From the IMG/VR virus record IMGVR_UViG_3300037109_000037, positions 1 to 28,226 of that record: 28,226 nt of DNA. One strand, 5' to 3'. How positions within the stretch are numbered: position 1 is the first letter of the stretch; every line of letters begins with the position of its first letter. Under the pieces are notes generated by a model, which was not told where the DNA came from, made no database searches, and worked only from the letters and a program-made list of their open reading frames with translations. The position numbers were made by a program, and so were the translations under genes. This document shows, piece after piece, positions 2,919-26,524 of this stretch. This DNA is from a virus.

Positions 2919-3128
2919 ATGAGCACTGCACCAAACCGGACACACGCCCAGCAACTGGTGTCACTCCGCACCGGCCGCGAGGTCCCCGACGCCCTGCGCG
3001 ACCTCTACATCTCGCAGGGCCTCTCCCAGGAGGACATCGCCCGCGAGTGGGGCATCACCCGCAACACGGTCGCGATGTGGCTGCGCGAGTACGGGATCAG
3101 CCGCGACGAGCGGCAGGCCATCGCGTGA
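2919..3128 (+). CDS. Small HTH protein, Cro-like first gene of the early operon
   Basis: 69 residues from ATG 2919. The C-terminal half is a clear helix-turn-helix: LYISQGLSQEDIAREW followed by the recognition helix GITRNTVAMWLREYGI, of the type found in small phage and transposase-associated DNA-binding proteins. The frame is open upstream to 2877, but that extension would run through the promoter, and no ribosome site precedes either start; leaderless translation from 2919 fits the promoter spacing. Position opposite the repressor suggests a Cro or early activator role. It overlaps the next gene by GTGA. Confidence 0.75.
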   Translation: MSTAPNRTHAQQLVSLRTGREVPDALRDLYISQGLSQEDIAREWGITRNTVAMWLREYGISRDERQAIA

Positions 3129-3307
3129 GCAGCGAGTCGCGGCGCCTCCTCGAGGCCGATCAGGACCTCGAGGACCTCGAGGAAGACGCGCGCCAGGACG
3201 CGCTGACTCGAGCTGCGGATCCGGGGCTGACCCGGGAAGCGTGGATCCACGTCAGGCAGGGCCAGCGCGAGACGCTGGACGACGACGACGAGGAGGACCC
3301 CTCGTGA
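3125..3307 (+). CDS. Small acidic hypothetical protein
   Basis: 60 residues from a GTG overlapping the Cro-like stop. It is strongly acidic, with DQDLEDLEEDARQDA near the N-terminus and a TLDDDDEEDP tail, and mostly helical. Small acidic early phage proteins sometimes mimic DNA or bind host enzymes, but nothing here shows that. Both ends are fixed by four-base overlaps, which is the main evidence that it is real. Confidence 0.6.
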   Translation: MSSESRRLLEADQDLEDLEEDARQDALTRAADPGLTREAWIHVRQGQRETLDDDDEEDPS

Positions 3308-5979: not shown

Positions 5980-6266
5980 CCCCGCCCGTCGTGTTCGCCT
6001 TCGCGGATCCGGCACGCCGGACCTGGATCGCCCTCAACCGGGCAGGCGACGCCTACCACGTGGTGACCCCGACGCCCGATGACGCCCAGCTCATCACGGA
6101 CGGCCTGCGGCACAAGGGCCAGCTCAGCTGCTCGTGCGCCGGCGGGCGCTACCGCGGGAGCTGCTACGTGACGGTCGCCTGTGAGGCGATCGAGGCTGGC
6201 CCCTCCGCCGAGCCCACCTGGTTCGACGCGGCTCCGGGCGAGCTCGTGGAGGCCTGGGGCAAGTGA
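5976..6266 (+). CDS. Small Cys-rich protein, SWIM-like
   Basis: 96 residues. The C-terminal half contains LSCSCAGGRYRGSCYVTVACE, reminiscent of the SWIM zinc module (C-x-C...C-x-H), but the expected final His is Val, and a further Cys four residues on may substitute. SWIM modules bind DNA or protein and are common in phage early genes. It lies between the annealing protein and SbcD with ATGA/GTGA overlaps, so it may assist recombination; this is inference. Confidence 0.55.
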   Translation: MTPPVVFAFADPARRTWIALNRAGDAYHVVTPTPDDAQLITDGLRHKGQLSCSCAGGRYRGSCYVTVACEAIEAGPSAEPTWFDAAPGELVEAWGK

Positions 6267-7411
6267 CCAGGATCGGATTTTGCGCAGACCTCCACGTCGA
6301 CGCCTACGGGTCCCGCGTCGATCCGGCAACGGGCCTCAACGCCCGCCTCGTCGACTACCTCGCGACGACCGCCTGGATGGCCGCCGAGGCCCGGCGCCGC
6401 GGGGCCGAGGCGCTCGTCGTCGCCGGCGACTTCACGGAGCGGCGCCATCCCGCGCCCTGGCTCGTGAGCCGGATCCGCGGCGCGCTCTCCGGCTTCCCGG
6501 GCCGCCAGGTCTACCTCCGCGGGAACCACGACGGGGAGATCGCCGGCGGCTCGATCGTGACCCTCCTCGACGATGGGTTCGAGGAGCAGGACGAGGCCGG
6601 CCGGACCGGGGTCAGCCGGCCGGGGCTCGAGCCGATCGCCTTCGACGTCGTCCTCGCCTGCGTCCCGCATCTCGATCGCCACTGGTTGCGGGCCCAGCCG
6701 GGCATGGAGAAGGTCCCCGACGCCGAGGTCTATCAGGCCCTCGGCGACCAGTTCCTGACGATCGCCCGGGGCCTGTACGCCGAGGCGCGGGCCGACTACC
6801 CGGACGCCGCGTGCGTGCTCGTCTGCCACCAGACCCTTGCCGGCGCCCACATGTCCGAGAGCCAGCAGGCCTTCCTCGGCGATCTCGGCCTGGTCGTCGA
6901 CGCCCGGGCTCTCGCCGCGATCGGCTTCGAGGGGATCGTCGCCGGCCACCTGCACCGCCACCAGGTCGTGCTCGAGGAGCCCCCAGTCCTATATCCGGGC
7001 TCGATCGAGCGGGTGGACTTCGGGGAGGAGCACGAGGCCAAGGGGTTCGTGATCGCTGACGTCGAGCCCGGCCGATTCGCCTGGGAGTTCGTCGAGACGC
7101 CGGCGCGGCGGTTCGTGACGCTCATGGGCGATCCGGCCCTCATCGGAGCTTCCGAGGTCGGGGACGCCATCGTTCGCGTCCTGGACCTGGCGCCCGACAC
7201 GGACACCGCGCGGCTGCGGGTAGAGCTCGAAGCTGCCGGGGCCTTCGAGATCGTCCAGATGCAGCAGCGGCGCCCCGATGCCCCGGAGATCGCCGGCGGG
7301 CTGTCGGAGTCGCTCGGTCCCCTCGAGGCGCTCTCCGCGTACTTCGCCGACGACCCGGATGCCGAGCCGCTCGTGGCGCTCGGCCGCGAACTCCTGGAGG
7401 ACGCGGCGTGA
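6263..7411 (+). CDS. sbcD: SbcD/Mre11-type nuclease subunit
   Basis: 382 residues from a GTG overlapping the previous stop. All metallophosphoesterase motifs are visible in order: D9-x-H11 (ADLHVD), GDFTE at 55-59, GNHDG at 87-91, CHQ with H189, and GHLH at 228-231, followed by the Mre11/SbcD signature PGSIERVDFGE near 245. These residues bind two Mn ions for 3'-5' exonuclease and endonuclease action on DNA ends and hairpins. The C-terminal ~110 residues would form the capping domain and the SbcC-binding segment. It is coupled to sbcC by a GTGA overlap, as expected for subunits of one complex. It likely acts in end processing with the upstream annealing protein. Confidence 0.93.
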   Translation: MTRIGFCADLHVDAYGSRVDPATGLNARLVDYLATTAWMAAEARRRGAEALVVAGDFTERRHPAPWLVSRIRGALSGFPGRQVYLRGNHDGEIAGGSIVTLLDDGFEEQDEAGRTGVSRPGLEPIAFDVVLACVPHLDRHWLRAQPGMEKVPDAEVYQALGDQFLTIARGLYAEARADYPDAACVLVCHQTLAGAHMSESQQAFLGDLGLVVDARALAAIGFEGIVAGHLHRHQVVLEEPPVLYPGSIERVDFGEEHEAKGFVIADVEPGRFAWEFVETPARRFVTLMGDPALIGASEVGDAIVRVLDLAPDTDTARLRVELEAAGAFEIVQMQQRRPDAPEIAGGLSESLGPLEALSAYFADDPDAEPLVALGRELLEDAA

Positions 7412-9618
7412 AGCTCGAGTCGATCGACCTGCGCAACTTCCTATCGCACGAGGCCACCCATTGGGAGCCGAACGGCGCGCGCCTGGCGACGATCGTCGGC
7501 TCCAACGGAGCCGGCAAGAGCGCCCTGCTCGACGGCATGCTCTTCGCGCTCTACGACGCCGCCCGCGCCCGGACCGATGACCTCGTGCGCCTCGGCGCCA
7601 CCGACATGTCGGCCGAGGTCACGTTCGCCTTCGCCGGCGCGCGCTACCGGGTCACCCGCGGCCGGACGACGCGCTCGGGCGGCAAGAGCTACCTCGAGCT
7701 CGCGATCGCGCAGGCCGACGGCTCCTGGCGGCCGCTGACGGCCGACTCGATCCGGGAAACACAGGCCGCGATCGAGGCCCTGCTGCGCCTGGATGCGGCC
7801 ACCTTCACGACGGCGGCCTTCCTGCGCCAGGGCGACGCCGACGCGTTCATCTCCGCGACGGCCGCCGAGCGGAAGCGGATCCTCGGCTCCGTCCTGGGGC
7901 TCGACGTGTACGCGGCCGCGGAGGCGCGGGCCCGCGATCGCGGCCGGATGCTCGAGGGCGAGACTGCCGCGGACCGCCGCGCCATGGAGACGCTCGACGC
8001 CGCGCTCGCGCACCGGGCCGAGCTCGAGGCTGCCGCGACCGCGGCGAAGGCCGAGGAAGAGGCGACGGTCGCAGCGATGGAGGTCGCCGGCCGGCGGCGG
8101 GACGCGGCCGAGGAGACCATGCGTTCTCTCGCGGGCCGGCTGGCCGAGGCCAAGGCAGCGCAGGCCGAGCTGGTCCGGATCGATGCCGACCTCGCCGCCC
8201 TCCGCGAGCGCTACCGCCGAGCTGGCGCGGATCGGACGCTGGCGCAGGCCGCGATCGAGCGGTCGAAGGCGGCGGCGACGGCCGTGGTTCCGGAGCACGA
8301 CGTCCTCAACGCCATGGCCGAGGTCGAGACGCTCGAGGCGGCCGACGAGCGGGAGCGGACCCAGCGCGAGGCCCTCGAGGAACGGCGATCTGAGTTCGTC
8401 GAGATGGAGAGGGTCCACACCCAGGTGGTCGCCGACTGGCGCGGACGCCAGGCCACGTATCAGGGACTCGTGACGGCCCTCGAGGACCAGGGGATGCACC
8501 TGGAACCCATCACCTGCCCGAAGTGCGCGCATCGGTTCCCCGCGGATCCGGGCGACGTCGCCGGTCGGCTCACCACGGCCCGGGCGGAGCTCGCCGCGGT
8601 CGGGCCTGCGCCGGCGGAATCGATGACGATGTCCCGCGCTCGGGTCGCGGTCTCGCGGGCGGAGACGCACCTGCTCGAGCACGCGTTCGATCACCAGCTG
8701 CTGCGGACCGCCCGCTTGGCACTGGACGCGGCACGGGGCGCACACGCGGCCGAAGTAGCCCGGGATGGCGCACGTGTAGCACTGGTCGACGCGCAGGCCG
8801 CCCTTGGCCGCGCTGAAGCCGAGCTGGCGGAGATCGACGCAACCGGGAAGACCGCGGCGAGCGTTCGCGCGAAGGCAGCCGAGCGGGCGGCCGATGCCGG
8901 CAAGGTCAGCGAGGAGCTCGCGGCCGCGGAGACCGAGCAACGCGAAGCGATCGCGGCGGCCACAGATGCCGCCCGGCGCCACGCCGGCGCGATCGCGGCC
9001 GATGCCGAGGCTCGCGGTGCCCTGGTCCGCCTCGCGCGCGACCAGGCGGAGCGCGATCGCATCGCCGGCGACGTTGCCCGAGCCGAGACCCAGCTGGCCC
9101 TCCTGCGCCGGCTGGTGACCGCGTTCGGGGTCACCGGGATCCCGGCCCGGATCATCGAGTCGGTCCTGCCGGAGCTCACCAGCTACGCGCAGGAGCTGCT
9201 CGACCAGCTGCGGCCGGGCATGGCGCTCTCGATCCGGGCCCAGCGAGCGAAGCGGGACGGCAAGGGCATCGTCGAGGCGCTCGACCTCGTCGTCCGCGAC
9301 GACGTCGGCGAGCGGCCGCTCTCGCTCTTCAGCGGCGGCGAGCGGATGTCCGTCTCGCTCGCCCTCGCGGTCGGGCTCTCGCGCCTGGTGGCGCGCCGGG
9401 CCGGGACCGCCATCCGGACGCTCGTCATCGACGAGCCCGACGGCCTGGACTCCGAGGCGCGGCGCGCCTTCGGTCTGGCCCTGCGCGTCCTCGCCCACCA
9501 CGGCGAGCTCGAGCGGGTCGTCGTCGTCAGCCACCACGAGGACCTCGCAGAGGTCGGGGACGCGGTCTACCGAGTGTCCAAGGGCCCGGGCGGGTCCGTC
9601 ATCGAGCAGGTCAGCTGA
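7408..9618 (+). CDS. sbcC: SbcC/Rad50-type ATPase subunit
   Basis: 736 residues. N-terminal LRNFLSHEATHW and Walker A GSNGAGKS (31-38); a long Ala/Glu/Arg coiled coil (~170-365); a zinc hook C370-P-K-C373 at its apex; a returning coil to ~560; then signature LFSGGERMS (SGGE at 642-645), Walker B LVIDEP (D675, E676) and the H-switch SHHEDL. All parts of a working SMC-like ATPase that gates SbcD are present. It is shorter than the ~1050-residue bacterial SbcC, mainly through shorter coiled-coil arms, as in other phage versions such as the T4 gp46 type. Together with SbcD it forms the phage's DNA-end nuclease. Confidence 0.93.
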   Translation: MKLESIDLRNFLSHEATHWEPNGARLATIVGSNGAGKSALLDGMLFALYDAARARTDDLVRLGATDMSAEVTFAFAGARYRVTRGRTTRSGGKSYLELAIAQADGSWRPLTADSIRETQAAIEALLRLDAATFTTAAFLRQGDADAFISATAAERKRILGSVLGLDVYAAAEARARDRGRMLEGETAADRRAMETLDAALAHRAELEAAATAAKAEEEATVAAMEVAGRRRDAAEETMRSLAGRLAEAKAAQAELVRIDADLAALRERYRRAGADRTLAQAAIERSKAAATAVVPEHDVLNAMAEVETLEAADERERTQREALEERRSEFVEMERVHTQVVADWRGRQATYQGLVTALEDQGMHLEPITCPKCAHRFPADPGDVAGRLTTARAELAAVGPAPAESMTMSRARVAVSRAETHLLEHAFDHQLLRTARLALDAARGAHAAEVARDGARVALVDAQAALGRAEAELAEIDATGKTAASVRAKAAERAADAGKVSEELAAAETEQREAIAAATDAARRHAGAIAADAEARGALVRLARDQAERDRIAGDVARAETQLALLRRLVTAFGVTGIPARIIESVLPELTSYAQELLDQLRPGMALSIRAQRAKRDGKGIVEALDLVVRDDVGERPLSLFSGGERMSVSLALAVGLSRLVARRAGTAIRTLVIDEPDGLDSEARRAFGLALRVLAHHGELERVVVVSHHEDLAEVGDAVYRVSKGPGGSVIEQVS

Positions 9619-18025: not shown

Positions 18026-18411
18026 CGACCACGCTCACGCCAGCCGAGGTCGCCGACGCCCTCAAGGTGAGCCGCAGCCTCGTGCTGGCGTGGATCCGCG
18101 AGGGTCGGCTGGGTCACTTCCGGGCCGGGCGGATCATCCGCGTGACGACAGAGGACCTCGCCGCGTTCGTGGAGGCGCATCATGCGCAGGATGGGCAAGG
18201 TGAAGGGTCGCGGGAACGGCCAGGGCAGCATCTACCAGGTGCCCGGGCGTCGGAAGCCGTGGTGCGCGACCATCAGCGCGGGCTGGCGGAACGGCAAGCT
18301 CGTCCGCGTGGCCCGCTACGCAGCGTCGGAGGCCGAGGCCAAGCGGCTCCTGCGACGGCTCCGGGCGGAGCACGCCGAACCACGTCGCTGGGACATCCCG
18401 ACCGTGGCTGA
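18022..18411 (+). CDS. xis: Excisionase-like (MerR/Xis) HTH protein, overlapping the integrase start
   Basis: 129 residues from GTG 18022. The first ~55 residues are a standard Xis/MerR winged HTH: LTPAEVADALKVSRSLVLAW, then IREGRLGHFRAGRIIRVTTE and DLAAFVEAHH. Such proteins bind near att and direct integrase to excision. The frame then runs on for ~70 Arg/Gly/Ala-rich residues inside the integrase gene in another phase, an overlap of up to 230 bases. The tail looks like a shadow of the integrase codons, so the functional part probably ends near residue 58 and the rest may be tolerated. Regulation together with int is implied by the overlap. Confidence 0.65.
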   Translation: MTTTLTPAEVADALKVSRSLVLAWIREGRLGHFRAGRIIRVTTEDLAAFVEAHHAQDGQGEGSRERPGQHLPGARASEAVVRDHQRGLAERQARPRGPLRSVGGRGQAAPATAPGGARRTTSLGHPDRG

Positions 18412-19270
18412 CCATCTCGAGGCGTGGCTGCTCGAGGTCGGCCGCCGGCGGGCGCCGCAGACGACGGCCACCTACCGCTCCGCCGCCGAGACGTGGATCA
18501 TCCCGGCGCTCGGGGAGGTCCGGCTCGACGATCTCACCCGCGGCCAGGTGCAGGCGCTCGTCGACGACGTCGCCGCGATCCGCCGACCCGCCACGGCGCA
18601 GAACGTCCACCACACGATCCGGGCCGCGCTCTCGTCGGCCGTCCGTGACGAGCTGGTGCCGCGCAACGTGGCCTCCCTCGTGGAGGGCCCAGTATCGGAT
18701 CACGCACAGACGGCGATCCTCGAGGGTGACGCGGCGCGCCGCCTGGTCGCCGCGATCGCCGACGACTGGCTGGGCCCGCTGTATGTCCTGCTCCTGGCCA
18801 CGGGTCTCCGGCTCGGCGAGGCATGCGCGCTGGACTGGCGCGACCTCGACCTCGAGCGCGGCACGGTCGCCGTCCGCCAGGGCAAGACGGCCCGCAGCGT
18901 CCGCACCGTGCCGATCCTGGCCTTCGCGCTGCCCGTGCTCCGCGCCCACCGCAGCCGGGCAGCCACCGTCGACCTGGACTCGCCGGTCTTCCGCGGGGCC
19001 CGGTCCCACGACCGCCTGACCGGCTATGTCGCGAGCCAGCACTGGCCGCGGCTGCTCCGGGACGTCGGCTGGCGCCCGATGCGCGCCCACGACCTGCGCC
19101 ATGCCCACGCCAGCCTGCAGCTGGCCGCCGGGACGCCGATGCGGGCGATCGCCGACCAGCTCGGCCACGCGAACCCGAGCCTGACGGCGAACGTCTACGC
19201 CCACCTGGGATCGGGCGCCCTGCGCGACGCGGCGGACCGCGTCGACGACCTCCTCAAGCGGGAAAGCTGA
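18182..19270 (+). CDS. int: Tyrosine-recombinase integrase
   Basis: 362 residues (ATG 18182; ATG 18191 is an alternative). An N-terminal arm-binding type domain (GSIYQVPGRRKPWCATIS...), a SAM-like core-binding domain at ~70-160, and the catalytic domain at ~175-362 with R210 (ATGLRLGEA), K235 region (RQGKTARSVRT), H303-x2-R306 (HDLRHAHA), H329 (LGHANPS) and nucleophile Y339 (ANVYAHL). All catalytic residues are present, so it should be active. It sits immediately before the tRNA-His fragment and repeats, and follows Xis, the usual int-attP module. Confidence 0.93.
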   Translation: MRRMGKVKGRGNGQGSIYQVPGRRKPWCATISAGWRNGKLVRVARYAASEAEAKRLLRRLRAEHAEPRRWDIPTVADHLEAWLLEVGRRRAPQTTATYRSAAETWIIPALGEVRLDDLTRGQVQALVDDVAAIRRPATAQNVHHTIRAALSSAVRDELVPRNVASLVEGPVSDHAQTAILEGDAARRLVAAIADDWLGPLYVLLLATGLRLGEACALDWRDLDLERGTVAVRQGKTARSVRTVPILAFALPVLRAHRSRAATVDLDSPVFRGARSHDRLTGYVASQHWPRLLRDVGWRPMRAHDLRHAHASLQLAAGTPMRAIADQLGHANPSLTANVYAHLGSGALRDAADRVDDLLKRES

Positions 19271-19306: not shown

Positions 19307-19326
19307 GAACGAGTGCAGATCGAGTG
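19307..19326 (+). repeat. Left copy of 20-bp direct repeat, candidate integrase arm site
   Basis: GAACGAGTGCAGATCGAGTG at this place is repeated exactly at 19463-19482, in the same direction, on the other side of the tRNA-His fragment. A shorter GAGTGCAG word recurs at 19322-19329 directly after. Pairs of direct repeats flanking a core are how arm-type sites of lambda-like integrases are arranged. Confidence 0.55.
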
Positions 19327-19357
19327 CAGCCCGTCACGTGGGCCACGCCCATAGGCA

Positions 19358-19407
19358 TCGGATTGTGGCTCCGAAGGTTACGGGTTCAATCCCCGTAGGC
19401 CACCCCA
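19358..19407 (+). other. Probable attP core: 3' portion of a tRNA-His (GTG) gene
   Basis: From 19358 the sequence gives an intact anticodon arm (TCGGA/TCCGA, loop TTGTGGC, anticodon GTG at 19365-19367), a 5-nt variable loop, a T arm (ACGGG/CCCGT, loop TTCAATC), a 3' acceptor strand AGGCCAC, the C73 discriminator special to tRNA-His, and CCA. The part upstream does not complete the molecule: an acceptor-like GTGGGCC pairs in only 5 of 7 positions and the D arm is too short. It is therefore a tRNA 3' end, the usual attP core that restores the host gene on integration, lying 87 bp after int. Confidence 0.7.
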
Positions 19408-19458
19408 CTTCTCCTCGTGGGGACACCGCACAGACCCGCACCAATCCGCGCCGTTCCG

Positions 19459-19758
19459 ATGCGAACGAGTGCAGATCGAGTGATCGAACGAGTGCAGGCT
19501 GACGTGGCAACGCCGCCGCGTCCGCTGACCGACCGCGAATGGCAGGTCTTCGACCTCGTGACAGGCCCTCGCGGCTCGCGCAAGGCCGCAGCCGCGGCCC
19601 TCGGGATCAGTGAGAGCACGGTCGACGGGCACCTCCACAGCGTGTTCGCCAAGCTCGGCGTGGAGACCATCGGAGGGGCCGCTCGGAAGCTCGGACAGGC
19701 CGAACGGCACGGTGGAAAAGCACGTGGTGGAAAAGCACGGGTAGCCGCCAGCGGCTAA
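19459..19758 (+). CDS. LuxR/GerE-type HTH protein
   Basis: 99 residues from ATG 19459; a GTG at 19417 would add 14 residues of unlikely sequence, and GTG 19480 is a later choice. Residues ~21-83 form a GerE-like HTH: RPLTDREWQVFDLVTGPRGS, RKAAAAALGISESTVDGHLH and SVFAKLGVETIGGAARKLGQ. There is no receiver or ligand domain. The end has a tandem GGKAR-GGKAR repeat, encoded by two 15-bp units at 19711-19740. Its start region carries the right-hand attP repeats. It may regulate int or lysis genes; inference. Confidence 0.65.
   Translation: MRTSADRVIERVQADVATPPRPLTDREWQVFDLVTGPRGSRKAAAAALGISESTVDGHLHSVFAKLGVETIGGAARKLGQAERHGGKARGGKARVAASG
19463..19497 (+). repeat. Right copy of the direct repeat plus a half copy
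   Basis: The 20-bp word of 19307-19326 is repeated exactly at 19463-19482, and its first 12 bases (GAACGAGTGCAG) again at 19486-19497. These lie about 56 bp after the tRNA-His fragment, against about 31 bp before it for the left copy. They overlap the start of the HTH gene, so integrase binding could affect its expression. Confidence 0.55.
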
Positions 19759-19788: not shown

Positions 19789-19820
19789 GCCCGGACGTCG
19801 ACTCCTCTTCGCGTCCGGGC
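19789..19820 (+). terminator. GC-rich hairpin before the tRNA gene, possible terminator
   Basis: A perfect 9-bp inverted repeat (GCCCGGACG and CGTCCGGGC) with a 14-nt loop lies between the HTH gene and the tRNA. No T-run follows, so it may stop transcription weakly or guide tRNA processing. Confidence 0.35.
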
Positions 19821-19830
19821 GTCCCATCTG

Positions 19831-19905
19831 CGCCGGCGGGACGGACGGTAAGTCGCCGGGCCCATAACCCGGAGAGACGGGGTTCGACTCCCCGGCTGGC
19901 AACCA
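19831..19905 (+). tRNA. Initiator tRNA-fMet (anticodon CAT)
   Basis: A 75-nt cloverleaf with encoded CCA. Acceptor CGCCGGC pairs with GCTGGCA, except C1 and A72, the mismatch that marks bacterial initiator tRNAs. The D stem has G10-C25, A11-T24 and C12-G23; A11-T24 is another initiator trait. The anticodon stem CCGGG/CCCGG ends in three G-C pairs, the third initiator trait. Anticodon CAT is at 19863-19865. The T arm is CGGGG/CCCCG with loop TTCGACT. Two oddities: position 33 is C instead of the near-universal T, and the D loop is short with a G13/A22 mismatch. It is complete and unlike an elongator tRNA-Met or tRNA-Ile. It may be phage-encoded or, if the region holds host DNA, a host copy. 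Confidence 0.82.
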
Positions 19906-19944
19906 CACACTGGCGAGCCGCACGCGCCCATCGCTCGCCCGGCC

Positions 19945-19966
19945 GCCGGGGTCCGTCATCCCCGGC
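19945..19966 (+). terminator. Hairpin after the tRNA gene, possible terminator
   Basis: A 7-bp perfect inverted repeat (GCCGGGG and CCCCGGC) with an 8-nt loop follows the tRNA by 39 bases and precedes the lysis-type genes. It lacks a T-run, so termination is uncertain. Confidence 0.3.
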
Positions 19967-20422: not shown

Positions 20423-20742
20423 GCGCGATGTCCAACCGCCTACCCACGGGCCCGGGCTCCCGCGGCGGGCACTGGCACGAGCCCGAGTACCCGGCGATGT
20501 ACCAGCGGGCGTGGCGCGCGGCGCACCCCGAGTACCGCGAGCGCGAACGGCTTCGCAGGTTCCGGGAGCGGGCGCGGAGGAACGGTGATCCGGCTGACTA
20601 CGGGACTGCCCCCTCCTATCCGCGCCCGCTCCCCGAGCCCGCCGTCACGTGCGTCTGCGCCTGCGGCTGCCGCGAGCCGGTCGTCGTGACGTGTGGCTTC
20701 TGTCGTGAGGGGATGCACGCCGAAGTGGAGGCAATGGCATGA
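20419..20742 (+). CDS. Small basic protein with C-terminal Cys cluster
   Basis: 107 residues from GTG 20419 overlapping the previous stop (an inner ATG lies at 20428). The N-terminal half is basic and Tyr/Arg-rich (YQRAWRAAHPEYRERERLRR), like short DNA-binding segments of HNH-associated proteins. The end is CVCACGCREPVVVTCGFC...H, a two-knuckle zinc site. Not a known lysis protein. It overlaps the peptidase gene by ATGA. Confidence 0.6.
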   Translation: MSAMSNRLPTGPGSRGGHWHEPEYPAMYQRAWRAAHPEYRERERLRRFRERARRNGDPADYGTAPSYPRPLPEPAVTCVCACGCREPVVVTCGFCREGMHAEVEAMA

Positions 20743-21707
20743 CCGACCAGACCTACGGCTTGGGCGCGATCCAGAGCCCGCCTGACGATCGGGATTACCC
20801 GATCGAGGCGCTGTACGCCGCGCTCGGCGTCGACGTCCCCGTCGCGCTTCCTGCGGTCTACGTCTCGACTCCTGTCCCGCCGGTCCTCAACCAGGGATCC
20901 ACGCCGCAGTGCGTGGCCTTCTCGGCGGCCGGCGTCAAGGACTTCCAGGACTACGACGACCAGGCGCCCAAATGGTGGGACTTCGACCACGACCTCTTCT
21001 TCTCACGCATCGGTGGCGGCCCCGCCGGTGCTGTCGTTCGCAACGCGATGGACCAGCTGCTCAAGGTCGGCTACCCGGTCGTGGGCAACCCGGCTGCGGC
21101 GTCGCTGCACAAGGTCGCCGCGTACTACGCGGTCCCGGTCACGGTCGCCGACATCAAGGCCGCCATCGCGACGTTCGGCGAGGTCGTCTTCGGGATGACC
21201 TGGGCGAACTCGTATTTCGGCCCGAACTCGGCCGGCATCCTCCCGGCGTTCGATTACCAGGCTGGCGGGCATGCGATCCGCTGCCGCGGGTGGGACGACA
21301 GCAAGGGCTTCCGCCTTGCCAACTCGTGGGGCAATGGCTGGGGTGTGAACGGCGAGTGCTACCTGCCGTACAACCAGCTCGGCCACGTCTTCGAGGTCTG
21401 GAAGGCACCCGACCAGCCGTCGCCGACTCCTCCGCCGCCTCCTCCTCCGGCCCCGACGATCTTTCACTGGCACGTCGCGGCAGGCGCCAAGATCCGGGTC
21501 TATCCGCTGCGCCCCGTGACCGGCTGCATCCTCCCGGGCTGGACGATCACGCCCAACCCGACCGCGTTCTCAGCGCCGTGCACGGTGGTCGCCCATCGGG
21601 TCACCTGCGACGGCAAGTCGGGCGCCTTCACCGTCAAGGTCCTGTCGGGGAAGTACTACGGCAAGACGGTCGGCGTCGACCCGGCGAGCGGGACGACCGT
21701 CTCATGA
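20739..21707 (+). CDS. Papain-like (C1A) cysteine peptidase, candidate lysis enzyme
   Basis: 322 residues. The C1A catalytic set is complete: oxyanion Q52 and nucleophile C58 (NQGSTPQCVAFS), H178 (GGHAIRCRGW) and N195 (ANSWGNGWG). There is no signal peptide. A Pro-rich linker (~226-240) joins it to a ~80-residue C-terminal beta-rich domain (HWHVAAGAKIRVYPL...GKYYGKTVGVD) that could bind the cell wall. It is followed at once by two holin-like membrane proteins, and no amidase, lysozyme or transglycosylase is seen in the window. A role in cutting peptidoglycan peptides is therefore plausible; alternatives are cleavage of host or virion proteins. Confidence 0.85.
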   Translation: MTDQTYGLGAIQSPPDDRDYPIEALYAALGVDVPVALPAVYVSTPVPPVLNQGSTPQCVAFSAAGVKDFQDYDDQAPKWWDFDHDLFFSRIGGGPAGAVVRNAMDQLLKVGYPVVGNPAAASLHKVAAYYAVPVTVADIKAAIATFGEVVFGMTWANSYFGPNSAGILPAFDYQAGGHAIRCRGWDDSKGFRLANSWGNGWGVNGECYLPYNQLGHVFEVWKAPDQPSPTPPPPPPPAPTIFHWHVAAGAKIRVYPLRPVTGCILPGWTITPNPTAFSAPCTVVAHRVTCDGKSGAFTVKVLSGKYYGKTVGVDPASGTTVS

Positions 21708-22789: not shown

Positions 22790-23526
22790 CAGCGACCGCG
22801 ACGAAGCCCGGCGTAGCCTTCGATCCGGCGCTCCATTGCGGCGCTCCCGCCACGAGCTATCGGCGGATGGGCGAACCGTGCCGAGCGCTGAAAGGCAAAG
22901 GGCCGAACGGCCTGTGCTGGCAGCACGATGGGCGCAGCCTGGCCGTCACCTTCGATCCCGCGAAGCACTGCGGGGCCGAGACCAATCCACTCTTCAATGA
23001 CGCCAAGCCGTGTTGCGAGCCGAAGGGCTGGGGGACCGATCACGTCGGATCCGGTCACTGCCGAAAGCACCTCGGGACGTCGCCGAACGGGATCAAGGCC
23101 GCCGCGAAAGAGGCCGCTGAGATCGCCGTCGTCAAGCTGGGGCTGCCGTCCGGCTCGGGCGATCCCTTCGCCCTCCTGGACAAGACCATCCGCTACGCCG
23201 ACAGCTACCTCGACGGGACCGGGCAGCTCCTGGCCGATGTCGTGGAGCGGCGCAACACGACCGTCTCTCTCGAAGCCGCCGCCGCGATCCACGTCCGCGC
23301 CATCCGGCAGGCGTCCATGACCGGGAGTCAGGCGGTCGAGGCCGACGTAGCCGACCGCCGCGAGGCGCGAAATGAGCGGCTCGGCGACTTCGTCCTGCGC
23401 TTCGCGCGGGATCTCATCGCGCAGGTCGCGCCCCCGACAGCGTGGCCGGACTTGGAGGCTTGGGCGACCGGCCACCTTCGCGCCCTCGCCGCCGAGTACG
23501 AATCCCCCAGCGGGCTGGTGCATTGA
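22786..23526 (+). CDS. terS: Probable small terminase subunit
   Basis: 246 residues. Two N-terminal zinc-type repeats, HCGAPATSYRRMGEPC...GLCWQHDG and HCGAETNPLFNDAKPC...WGTDHVGSGHCRKH, then a TSPNG turn. This is the C...PC...W(G)T.H.G.G.C..H motif of one family of phage small terminase-like proteins. The following ~140 residues are helical, with VKLGLPSGSGDPFALLDKTI and a long AIHVRAIRQAS helix. It lies directly upstream of the large terminase and shares one base with it (TGATG). The role is DNA recognition for packaging, by family and position. Confidence 0.72.
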   Translation: MTATATKPGVAFDPALHCGAPATSYRRMGEPCRALKGKGPNGLCWQHDGRSLAVTFDPAKHCGAETNPLFNDAKPCCEPKGWGTDHVGSGHCRKHLGTSPNGIKAAAKEAAEIAVVKLGLPSGSGDPFALLDKTIRYADSYLDGTGQLLADVVERRNTTVSLEAAAAIHVRAIRQASMTGSQAVEADVADRREARNERLGDFVLRFARDLIAQVAPPTAWPDLEAWATGHLRALAAEYESPSGLVH

Positions 23527-25037
23527 TGACGCTCGTCCTGCCGGCCTTCCCGATCCGCAATCCGTTCTCGATCGCCGCCGAGCGGCTCGACGCCAACTCG
23601 GAACGCGCGGCGCTCGACCGCGAGCGCGATGCCGCCCTGGCCGATGTGGAGACCTTCGCCCGGCACTGCAAGATCAAGGCCGCTGAGGGAGCCGAGATCT
23701 CGTTCGCCGCGTCCGGGTGGACCTGGCAGTTCCAGCTCCTGGCACTGTGGGCGGCCAATCGGCTGTGCGTCGTGCTGAAGGCGCGCCAGCTCGGCGTCAG
23801 CTGGCTGTCGGCGATGTATGCGCTGTGGGTCGCGATGCGCCGCCCCGGCCAGTCGGTCTTGCTCATCAGCCGCAACCAGGATGACGCGGAGGAGTTGCTC
23901 GCCAAGGTCGCCTACATGTACGAGCGCCTCCCGGCCTGGCGGCCACGAGCGATCGTCAACGCGCGTTCGATCCGCTTCCCTTCGCTGGGCAGCGAGATCG
24001 AGGCGCTGCCGGCCACACAGAACGCGGGCCGGTCGCGGACAGCCCAGCTGGTGGTACTCGACGAGCACGCGCATCAGCCGTTCGCTCGCCAGATCTTCCT
24101 TGCTCTCAAGCCCGTGGTCGAGTTCGGCCAGGTCCTCTCGATCAGCTCGGCCAACGGCCAGGGCGCGCTCCACTCGCAGATCTACCTCGCCGCCAAGGCC
24201 GGCACGAACGGCTGGCGGGCCGTGTTCATCCCGTTCAGCGCGCACCCGGATCGCCAGGCCGAGGGATGGCTCGAGCGCGAGCGAGCCGAGCTCGAGCAGC
24301 TCGATGACGCGAAGTTCGCCCAGGAATACCCGGCCAACGACGTTGAGGCCATCGTCTCGACCGGCCGGCCTGTCTTCCGTCACCAGGACCTGACACGGCA
24401 GGAGCTCGAGGTTGGGCGCATGGGTGAGCCGGGCGTGACGTACTACCGAGAGCCCGAGGCGGGCCACGTCTACGTCATCGGCGCCGACGTCGGCGAGGGC
24501 CTGACGACGTCGGACTGGAGCTCGGCGACGGTCCTCGAGCGAGACTCCGGCGAGCAGGTCGCGCAGCTCCGCGCGCGCTGGACGCCCGACGTATTCGCCG
24601 CGAAGCTCGACGCCCTCGCCCGCCGCTTCGCGCGCCACGCCGAGCCCGCCAACGCCCACCCGGTGATCGTGGGCGTGGAGCGTAACAACCACGGCCACGC
24701 CGTCCTGCTCGCGCTCACGAAGCTCCACGCGGGCACGGCGCCATATCGGATCTACCGGGCGCCCGACAAGCGCGTCGGCTGGCTCACGACGAACGCCTCG
24801 CGCCCGGTCCTCGTCGATCAGCTCGAGGAGGCGCTGCGCACGAGCGCCCTGACCCTCCGAGACGCCGGCACGGTCGATCAGATGAGCACGTTCGCCTACA
24901 GCGACGACGGCCGGCCCGAGGCCCAGGAGGGCTACCACGACGACGACGTGATGGCCGCGGGCATCGCGGTCCAGCTGCGCCGGCGCGCGTTCGGGCGCGT
25001 GCTCGACGTTCGGCAGCCCGAGGCGGTGGCAGCATGA
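23526..25037 (+). CDS. terL: Large terminase subunit (packaging ATPase-nuclease)
   Basis: 503 residues from ATG 23526. ATPase domain: Walker A-like KARQLGVSW (85-93), Walker B LVVLDE (175-180) and coupling motif SSANGQG (208-213 region). Nuclease domain: GADVGEG (D321), GVERNNHG (E385) and HDDDVMAAG (D472-474), the RNase H-like acidic triad. Everything needed to drive DNA into the head and cut it is present. Length matches ~500-residue siphophage large subunits. It overlaps the portal gene by ATGA, keeping terminase, portal and head genes as one operon. Confidence 0.95.
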   Translation: MTLVLPAFPIRNPFSIAAERLDANSERAALDRERDAALADVETFARHCKIKAAEGAEISFAASGWTWQFQLLALWAANRLCVVLKARQLGVSWLSAMYALWVAMRRPGQSVLLISRNQDDAEELLAKVAYMYERLPAWRPRAIVNARSIRFPSLGSEIEALPATQNAGRSRTAQLVVLDEHAHQPFARQIFLALKPVVEFGQVLSISSANGQGALHSQIYLAAKAGTNGWRAVFIPFSAHPDRQAEGWLERERAELEQLDDAKFAQEYPANDVEAIVSTGRPVFRHQDLTRQELEVGRMGEPGVTYYREPEAGHVYVIGADVGEGLTTSDWSSATVLERDSGEQVAQLRARWTPDVFAAKLDALARRFARHAEPANAHPVIVGVERNNHGHAVLLALTKLHAGTAPYRIYRAPDKRVGWLTTNASRPVLVDQLEEALRTSALTLRDAGTVDQMSTFAYSDDGRPEAQEGYHDDDVMAAGIAVQLRRRAFGRVLDVRQPEAVAA

Positions 25038-26524
25038 CCCCGCCAGTGCTCACCACGCTCTGGATCACCGAGGGATCCGAGGGCAACCGGATCCGCAAGG
25101 CCGACTCGGTCAGCCAGCAGCTCGCCGACGATCCGTTCACGTATTCGAGGGAGGCCGGCGAGGGCGGCCTCGTCCACCCGCTCTACGACATGGACCAGCT
25201 CGCGGGCATGCTCGAGGGGAACACCCTCCACGCCCGCTGCGCCAAGCAGAAGGCGACCGACGTCGCTGGTCGCGGCTTCGAGCTCCGCGTGAAGGCAGAC
25301 GTCGCGGAGGGCGCCGGCGCGGCCGACGAGGCGAAGTGGGGCACGTTCGTCGAGGCCGTCGAGCAGGACGAGCGCGGCGACGAATCGTTCGCGCAGCGGA
25401 TCACGCAAGCCCACCAGGACTTCGAGTCGATCGGTTGGGCGACGCTCGAGGTCGGCCGGACGACCGACCGCACGCCGGACGGCCTGTGGCACGTCCCCTC
25501 GCACACGATCCGGGCGCACGCCGATGGCCGTCGGTTCGCGCAGAAGCGCGGCGGCAAGGCGGTCTGGTTCAAGCGCTACGGTATCGAGGGCACCGTCGAC
25601 AAGGCGACCGGCGCCTGGTCCGACCGGACGGTCTCAGGCGACTGGACCGGCAACGAGCTCCTGGTGATCCGGAACTACACGCCGCGCTCGAGCTACTACG
25701 GCCTGCCCGATCACATTCCGGCGCTGTCCGCGATCGCCGGCTGGCGGGCCCAGGCCGAGTTCAACATCCGCTTCTTCGACAACAACGCCGTGCCGTCCTA
25801 CGCGGTGATCGTCGAGGGCGCGGACGTGTCCCCTGAGTTCGAGCAGAAGATCCTCGACCACTTCCGGACGATCAAGGGCGATCCGCACCGGACCGTCGTC
25901 ATCCCGGTCCCAGGCATGCCCGGCGACGAGGCGACCCAGGCGAAGGTCCGGTTCGAGAAGCTCTCCGTCGACGTCAAGGACGCGAGCTTCCGGCTCTACA
26001 AGCAGGACAACGCCCTCGAGATCTGCATCGCCCACGGCGTCCCGCCGTACCGGGTCGGCTGGCCGATCATCGGGTCGCTCGGTGGCTCGACGGCGCTCGA
26101 AATGACGAAGATCTACAACGACTCGATCGTTCAGCCGCGCCAGGAGACCTGGGAGCAGCGGCTCGACCGCGCGCTCCTCGGAGCCAAGGGCCTGGCCCTG
26201 ACGTCGGTCGAGCTCAAGGCGAAGCGGCTCGACTCCCGCGACATGGCCGCCGACATCCTGGCCACCCAGGCCTTCTGGACCATGGGCGTCATCACGAAGG
26301 GCGCGATCGCTCGGTTCTACAACCTCGACGACCTGCCGCCCGAGCTCGCCGGCGAGTACTTCACCGCTCCGACCCCGGCGCCTGGTCTGGCGTTCGGCGG
26401 GTCCGCCGGCCTCACTGCGATGGACGGCGGGCTGATCGCCAAGCGCTGGAGCGCCGAGGTCCGCGAGCTGGCCGAGCTGCGCAAGCGCCTCGAGGCCTTC
26501 GTCGAAGGGCGGACGGCCGCATGA
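25034..26524 (+). CDS. Portal protein (PBSX-like)
   Basis: 496 residues overlapping terL. The portal core is recognised by LYDMDQLAGMLEGNTLHARC near the start, then IGWATLEVGR, the central RNYTPRSSYYGLPDHIPALS, NIRFFDNNAVPSYAVIV, FRTIKGDPHRTVVIP and YKQDNALEICIAHGVPPYRV, all typical of PBSX/HK97-type portals, the dodecameric ring through which DNA enters. A disordered C-terminal ~40 residues with a helical LAELRKRLEAF end follows. Complete gene, with the expected position between terminase and head morphogenesis. Confidence 0.92.
   Translation: MTPPVLTTLWITEGSEGNRIRKADSVSQQLADDPFTYSREAGEGGLVHPLYDMDQLAGMLEGNTLHARCAKQKATDVAGRGFELRVKADVAEGAGAADEAKWGTFVEAVEQDERGDESFAQRITQAHQDFESIGWATLEVGRTTDRTPDGLWHVPSHTIRAHADGRRFAQKRGGKAVWFKRYGIEGTVDKATGAWSDRTVSGDWTGNELLVIRNYTPRSSYYGLPDHIPALSAIAGWRAQAEFNIRFFDNNAVPSYAVIVEGADVSPEFEQKILDHFRTIKGDPHRTVVIPVPGMPGDEATQAKVRFEKLSVDVKDASFRLYKQDNALEICIAHGVPPYRVGWPIIGSLGGSTALEMTKIYNDSIVQPRQETWEQRLDRALLGAKGLALTSVELKAKRLDSRDMAADILATQAFWTMGVITKGAIARFYNLDDLPPELAGEYFTAPTPAPGLAFGGSAGLTAMDGGLIAKRWSAEVRELAELRKRLEAFVEGRTAA

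Follow-up and report, generated by a model that had tools for sequence, protein, structure and literature searches.

Gene content of the locus

The window, that is, the whole 28,226-nt stretch of DNA analyzed here, is an IMG/VR virus contig in which ARAGORN detected a single tRNA gene, a tRNA-Met(CAT) on the plus strand, at exactly the coordinates (19831-19905) that the preliminary description had assigned to it. The gene starts 560 bp downstream of a tyrosine integrase gene, and between the two lie a tRNA-His half resembling an attP site and a gene for a small helix-turn-helix (HTH) protein (Table 1). The tRNA-His half is flanked on both sides by copies of the direct repeat GAACGAGTGCAGATCGAGTG, which, judging by sequence, are candidate arm sites for the integrase. 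A search for attB with the tRNA-His half against 198 Actinomycetota genomes produced no match, and no sigma-70-like promoter was seen at the tRNA locus.

The genes for the terminase large subunit and the portal protein further downstream fix the locus as phage DNA. Because the tRNA gene is flanked by the integrase on one side and by the terminase and portal on the other, and this gene order is shared by an independent contig and resembled by that of a prophage (L051, see below), the earlier claim that it is phage-encoded holds. The papain-like peptidase that comes next to the tRNA in the window also follows it in L051. No named phage resembled the locus at the DNA level, the terminase and integrase yielding distant relatives only. 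Elsewhere in the window (6263-9618), SbcD-like and SbcC-like nuclease subunits are encoded, in a phage of such size.

Table 1. Features of the tRNA locus and the neighboring phage genes
Feature	Position	Strand	Evidence
Tyrosine integrase	18182..19270	+	PHROG phrog_1, E 4.6e-62; Pfam PF00589, E 1.8e-24
20-nt direct repeats GAACGAGTGCAGATCGAGTG, copies at 19307 and 19463, partial third at 19486	19307..19505	+	Sequence
attP-like site: tRNA-His(GTG) 3' half, degenerate 5' half	19359..19407	+	Rfam 19338-19404, 30.4 bits; location downstream of integrase; corresponding att site in L051
Small HTH protein (LuxR/GerE type), encoded between the attP-like site and the tRNA	19417..19758	+	Pfam PF00196, E 2.4e-8
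Perfect 9-bp GC hairpin directly upstream of tRNA	19789..19820	+	Sequence; hairpin also precedes tRNA in L051
Initiator-type tRNA (CAU), 75 nt with encoded CCA	19831..19905	+	ARAGORN; Rfam RF00005; sequence reading; parser
C33, base 5' of anticodon CAU (19863-19865)	19862	+	Sequence; ARAGORN anticodon offset 33
Hairpin A, perfect, GC, 7 bp, downstream of tRNA	19912..19939	+	7-bp hairpin at equivalent place in L051
Hairpin B, perfect, GC, 7 bp, loop TCCGTCAT, downstream of tRNA	19945..19966	+	L051 counterpart compared
Papain-like cysteine peptidase, next block past tRNA	20739..21707	+	PF00112, E 8.4e-7
Terminase large subunit and portal	23442..26524	+	Profile matches

An initiator-type tRNA with C33

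The Rfam tRNA model RF00005 matched the same 75 nucleotides with 40.1 bits (E 2.3e-5; gathering score 29), and by hand they read as CGCCGGC-GG-GACG-GACGGTA-AGTC-G-CCGGG-CCCATAA-CCCGG-AGAGA-CGGGG-TTCGACT-CCCCG-GCTGGCA-A-CCA. Positions 1 and 72 are C and A and form no Watson-Crick pair, the D stem contains A11-U24 (A11-T24 in the DNA; also returned by our parser), the anticodon stem ends in three G-C pairs (G29G30G31/C39C40C41), and A73 is followed by the encoded CCA. The anticodon loop is C32 C33 C34 A35 U36 A37 A38, so that the anticodon CAU is preceded by C33 in place of U33, a base that is usual in, although not defining for, tRNA-fMet. All the initiator marks listed in the preliminary description (C1/A72, A11-T24, the three G-C pairs and CAT), as well as C33, are thus seen in the sequence, and the assignment to the initiator type is backed by ARAGORN, Rfam and the parser. 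The other CAU identities, elongator tRNA-Met and tRNA-Ile2, were ruled out by C1·A72 together with GGG/CCC.

Position 33 of tRNAs is regarded as almost always U, the base responsible for the anticodon U-turn. Animal cytosolic initiators combine C33 with CAU, as does the window tRNA; eukaryotic initiators, however, have A1-U72 and are not formylated, whereas the window tRNA carries the bacterial marks. Its core also departs from the canonical one, a point absent from the preliminary description, with G8 instead of U8, G14 instead of A14, and A15/A48, so the U8-A14 and Levitt contacts cannot form in the normal way; the canonical U8/A14 and 15-48 pairs are general features of tRNAs rather than initiator-specific ones. 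When the strand was folded alone, the cloverleaf was not the preferred structure, but minimum free energy folding likewise misses a chromosomal initiator (L353).

C33 initiators among viruses and named phages

IMG/VR was searched with a pattern composed of GGGCCCATAACCC, a T arm and RACCA. The C33 form of this initiator signature is present in 45 stretches besides the window, and the U33 form was found in at least 120; T32 forms occurred in 15 stretches, and the purine-33 version of the same pattern in none. A sub-pattern search for which the listing was complete gave 5 C33 against 10 U33 stretches, 4 of the 10 being also among the 120 U33 matches listed; a U33 total of very roughly 300 in IMG/VR and a C33 share of 10-30% are suggested. 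The signature occurs in phages of diverse kinds, and many of these tRNAs are solitary: ARAGORN found at most one tRNA in the stretch read for 31 of the 45 C33 cases and for 71 of the 120 U33 cases among the matches listed. A72 is nearly invariant in the tRNAs that could be parsed (38 C33 and, among the matches listed, 110 U33). Departures at positions 8 and 14 were seen in both C33 and U33 viral initiators, G8 being found also in viral initiators other than that of the window, so that an unusual core appears to be common in phage initiators. Proximity to an integrase was considered as a general trait of C33 tRNAs and rejected, being found at 1 of the 45 loci, which belongs to the same phage.

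Among named phages, C33 was found in Pseudomonas phages D3 and FBPa47 and in Janthinobacterium phage Donnerlittchen; the others have U33, one of them annotated as tRNA-fMet. Initiator tRNA genes occur in named phages next to a terminase or an integrase gene. The tRNA-Met of D3 (AF165214, L462, 53398-53473) and its FBPa47 relative resemble the window tRNA in the CAU anticodon, the 1·72 mismatch (C1·U72 there), A11-U24, GGG/CCC and C33, but they have a normal U8/A14 core and are not next to an integrase in the stretch read; in FBPa47, moreover, genes for Gly, Asn and Thr tRNAs come after the initiator. The Bradleyvirinae (QDWS359, with its annotated tRNA-fMet, Donnerlittchen and IVIA-DoCa5) likewise carry an initiator tRNA at a constant genomic position, but beside terL, between terL and a ribonucleotide reductase gene where the latter is annotated, whereas the window copy lies beside attP. 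In three Bradleyvirinae loci with the tRNA after terL (L465, L463 and L473), loop bases 32-33 are CC, TT and TT in different phages, the bacterial norm being CT. Single tRNA-fMet genes have been described in phiLM21-like prophages of Sinorhizobium meliloti (PMC12429752). Like the window phage, these have a lone initiator tRNA, and they integrate into tRNA genes of other kinds, which insertion restores (PMC12429752); the phiLM21 copy differs, however, in having U33 and a normal core.

Relatives of the window phage

A search with the terminase retrieved one near-identical contig (L047, also L004) that carries the same tRNA, and other relatives with 62-86% identity. One of the latter, L051, with a terminase 83% identical to that of the window, is a prophage bounded by an intact tRNA-Leu(CAA) at the left end and its 3' half at the right. 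At 269-340, 170 bp from attL, L051 encodes a CAU tRNA with C33, a strongly diverged orthologue of the window tRNA that was undetected by Rfam but retains C1·A72, CAU, C33 and A73-CCA.

The presence of an integrase, an attP-like site and a tRNA side by side recalls tRNA-dependent lysogeny, a known mechanism (PMC10865867) in which the phage tRNA would take the place of a host tRNA gene that integration has disrupted. The att-like sites do not fit: that of the window resembles tRNA-His and that of L051 is tRNA-Leu(CAA), restored at attL, and neither is of the initiator isotype. We consider this explanation largely excluded.

Between the window and L051 tRNAs, six acceptor-stem pairs are kept, and pairs 4-69 and 7-66 have both changed from C-G to A-T; the D arms have little in common. 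Hairpin B of L051 (GGCCCGG-TCCGATAT-CCGGGCC) differs from that of the window by three compensatory pair changes. Because automatic alignment mis-registers the anticodon arm, pairs in the tRNAs were scored manually, and only those of hairpin B come from the alignment. The compensatory changes, two in the acceptor stem and three in hairpin B, suggest that selection acts on the tRNA and hairpin RNA, although two sequences are few for such a comparison.

In several other relatives, the tRNA is missing: none was found in the long contigs L048, L052 and L059, and in L053 the gap between the HTH gene and the next gene holds none, which makes the tRNA gene accessory. A query with the papain-like peptidase for further relatives recovered the same phage only. 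A relative phage with a serine recombinase (L056) contains an 82-nt tRNA-Val(GAC)-like gene at 3056-3137 that has an apparent insertion.

This patchy distribution is what one would expect of a passenger, an initiator tRNA acquired near the attachment site and now drifting, with C33, G8 and G14 as signs of decay. The abnormal core of the window tRNA would agree with such a history, and the L051 copy is worse, with U55 lost (C55), a very short D loop and a GGC/GCC anticodon stem, so that this copy may indeed be decaying. However, the compensatory changes have preserved the acceptor stem and hairpin B between the two phages, C1·A72, C33, CAU and A73-CCA have outlasted the divergence, and phage initiators with either base at position 33 often depart from the standard core. 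For the window gene, decay therefore seems to us an unlikely explanation.

C33 initiators in bacterial genomes

The preliminary description held that U33 is nearly universal in bacteria and that C33 is known mainly from animal initiators. As a rule, this stands, but the bacterial exceptions are large. At least 117 C33 stretches were found in bacterial genomes, nearly all of which combine C1·A72 with a core of the usual type. C33 is present in 8 of the 107 pattern-matching genomes of Bacilli, the class of Bulleidia, and in 2 of the 396 genomes of Actinomycetota. In Bulleidia extructa, Lactimicrobium, an Erysipelotrichaceae isolate, Christensenella, Caldisericales and several Patescibacteria, the C33 gene is the only initiator matched, although, the pattern being strict, a second, deviant initiator is possible in any single genome; genome loci of this kind include L353, L291, L292, L249, L285 and L312. 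These chromosomal C33 initiators (Erysipelotrichaceae, Christensenella, Patescibacteria, Caldisericales) have the same signature as the window tRNA but differ in their standard core and in being the sole matched host gene rather than a phage gene. Since some bacteria have no matched initiator other than a C33 gene, C33 appears to be compatible with ordinary bacterial initiation. The notion that C33 is foreign to bacteria finds no support; it also recurs in phages, including D3.

In two Mycolicibacterium genomes, Sporomusa, one Bryobacteraceae and one Myxococcales genome, C33 genes coexist with U33 genes, and those of Mycolicibacterium and Myxococcales sit inside tRNA clusters. The Myxococcales contig (L417, 312-2453) has 11 tRNA genes of odd shape packed closely together; two of them encode initiator-like CAU tRNAs whose D arms are short, and one of these two has C33. 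The array has a mobile or viral look. The two Mycolicibacterium species (L414 and L397) share an identically spaced His-Ser-Met-Met cluster with a C33 initiator besides the genomic U33 gene, possibly a mobile tRNA array.

Start codons and the following base

The window contains many ORFs with GTG starts, and it had been proposed that C33 shifts start choice toward the phage's GTG, TTG or leaderless starts. GTG starts are, however, common in high-GC phages anyway. A related older hypothesis, as quoted in PMC9841429, is that A after the start codon helps through pairing with U33. We compared ORFs with a Shine-Dalgarno match from C33 DNA (four sampled Bacilli genomes and AT-rich C33 loci) and from U33 Bacilli (loci L422-L461, L476-L495 and L247-L363 for the +4 position). 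A was found at +4 in 134 of 252 C33 ORFs (53%) and in 246 of 431 U33 ORFs (57%; Fisher p 0.34), G in 58 of 252 and 96 of 431 (p 0.85), and non-ATG starts, with no detectable difference, in 33 of 252 and 51 of 431; these figures come from crude gene calls and small samples, part of the C33 set being short contigs from several taxa, and a modest effect could escape such a comparison. Thus, the +4 base and the use of non-ATG starts do not differ detectably between Bacilli in which only C33 was matched and U33 Bacilli and lend no support to the link between C33 and start-codon preference, which we regard as very improbable. Nor is the U33-pairing idea supported, because the preference for A at +4 persists in genomes in which only a C33 initiator was matched.

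Possible functions of the phage initiator tRNA

Since C33 recurs in phages and is normal in several bacterial groups, the window gene probably encodes a genuine spare initiator tRNA, borne by the phage and adding to or replacing that of the host, with C33 as a tolerated variant and not a start-codon device. We infer that the gene would be transcribed during infection or lysogeny and its transcript trimmed to the encoded CCA end. The tRNA would then be charged with methionine by the host MetRS, which would recognize CAU and A73, formylated by virtue of the C1·A72 mismatch and A11-U24, and admitted to the ribosomal P site through GGG/CCC; charging, formylation and P-site entry follow from established initiator determinants. 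The benefit to the phage would be that its tRNA tops up or replaces the host initiator when the latter is limiting or destroyed, possibly in the face of tRNA-targeting defenses.

A more specific version of this last step would be that the phage tRNA replaces tRNA-fMet hit by a toxin or an abortive-infection nuclease, its altered loop (C33, perhaps together with the odd core) making it a poor substrate. Cleavage of tRNA-fMet by VapC toxins is established (PMC4105405, PMC5408214), and resistance to tRNases has been proposed for anticodon-loop changes in phage tRNAs (PMC10264068). Phage initiators do vary at positions 32 and 33 (45 stretches have C33 and 15 have T32, and none has a purine at 33), and the loop bases in the same terL-adjacent slot are CC in the Janthinobacterium phage and TT in phages of Xanthomonas and Stenotrophomonas. 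However, the enteric VapC cuts at A38/C39 (PMC4105405), which is unaltered in the window tRNA, where C33 is the loop base that differs from the bacterial norm; furthermore, C33 is also found as the only matched initiator in bacteria, where evasion would be needless. Shigella flexneri phages, for their part, avoid encoding tRNA-fMet where VapC-LT2 targets tRNA-fMet (PMC10264068). On balance, evasion of this kind is possible but not the likely role of the window tRNA. Extended to the lone initiators of many phages, the idea would be that position 33, and sometimes 32, has been changed repeatedly because host defenses hit tRNA-fMet, C33 being a selected resistant form. This generalization strikes us as distinctly doubtful; if true, the C33 form would keep phage translation starting once the host initiator is gone.

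Implications

Neither bacterial nor phage initiators with C33 were found described in a limited search of the literature, a result that is weak support for their novelty. For a spare initiator tRNA of the kind favored here, C33 is probably an unusual yet recurrent and tolerated state. Cultured bacteria (Bulleidia, Lactimicrobium) and the classical phage D3 have C33 initiators, which makes the role of U33 in bacterial initiation directly testable, and the wide occurrence of single initiator tRNAs in phages suggests that phages protect or enhance the initiation step.
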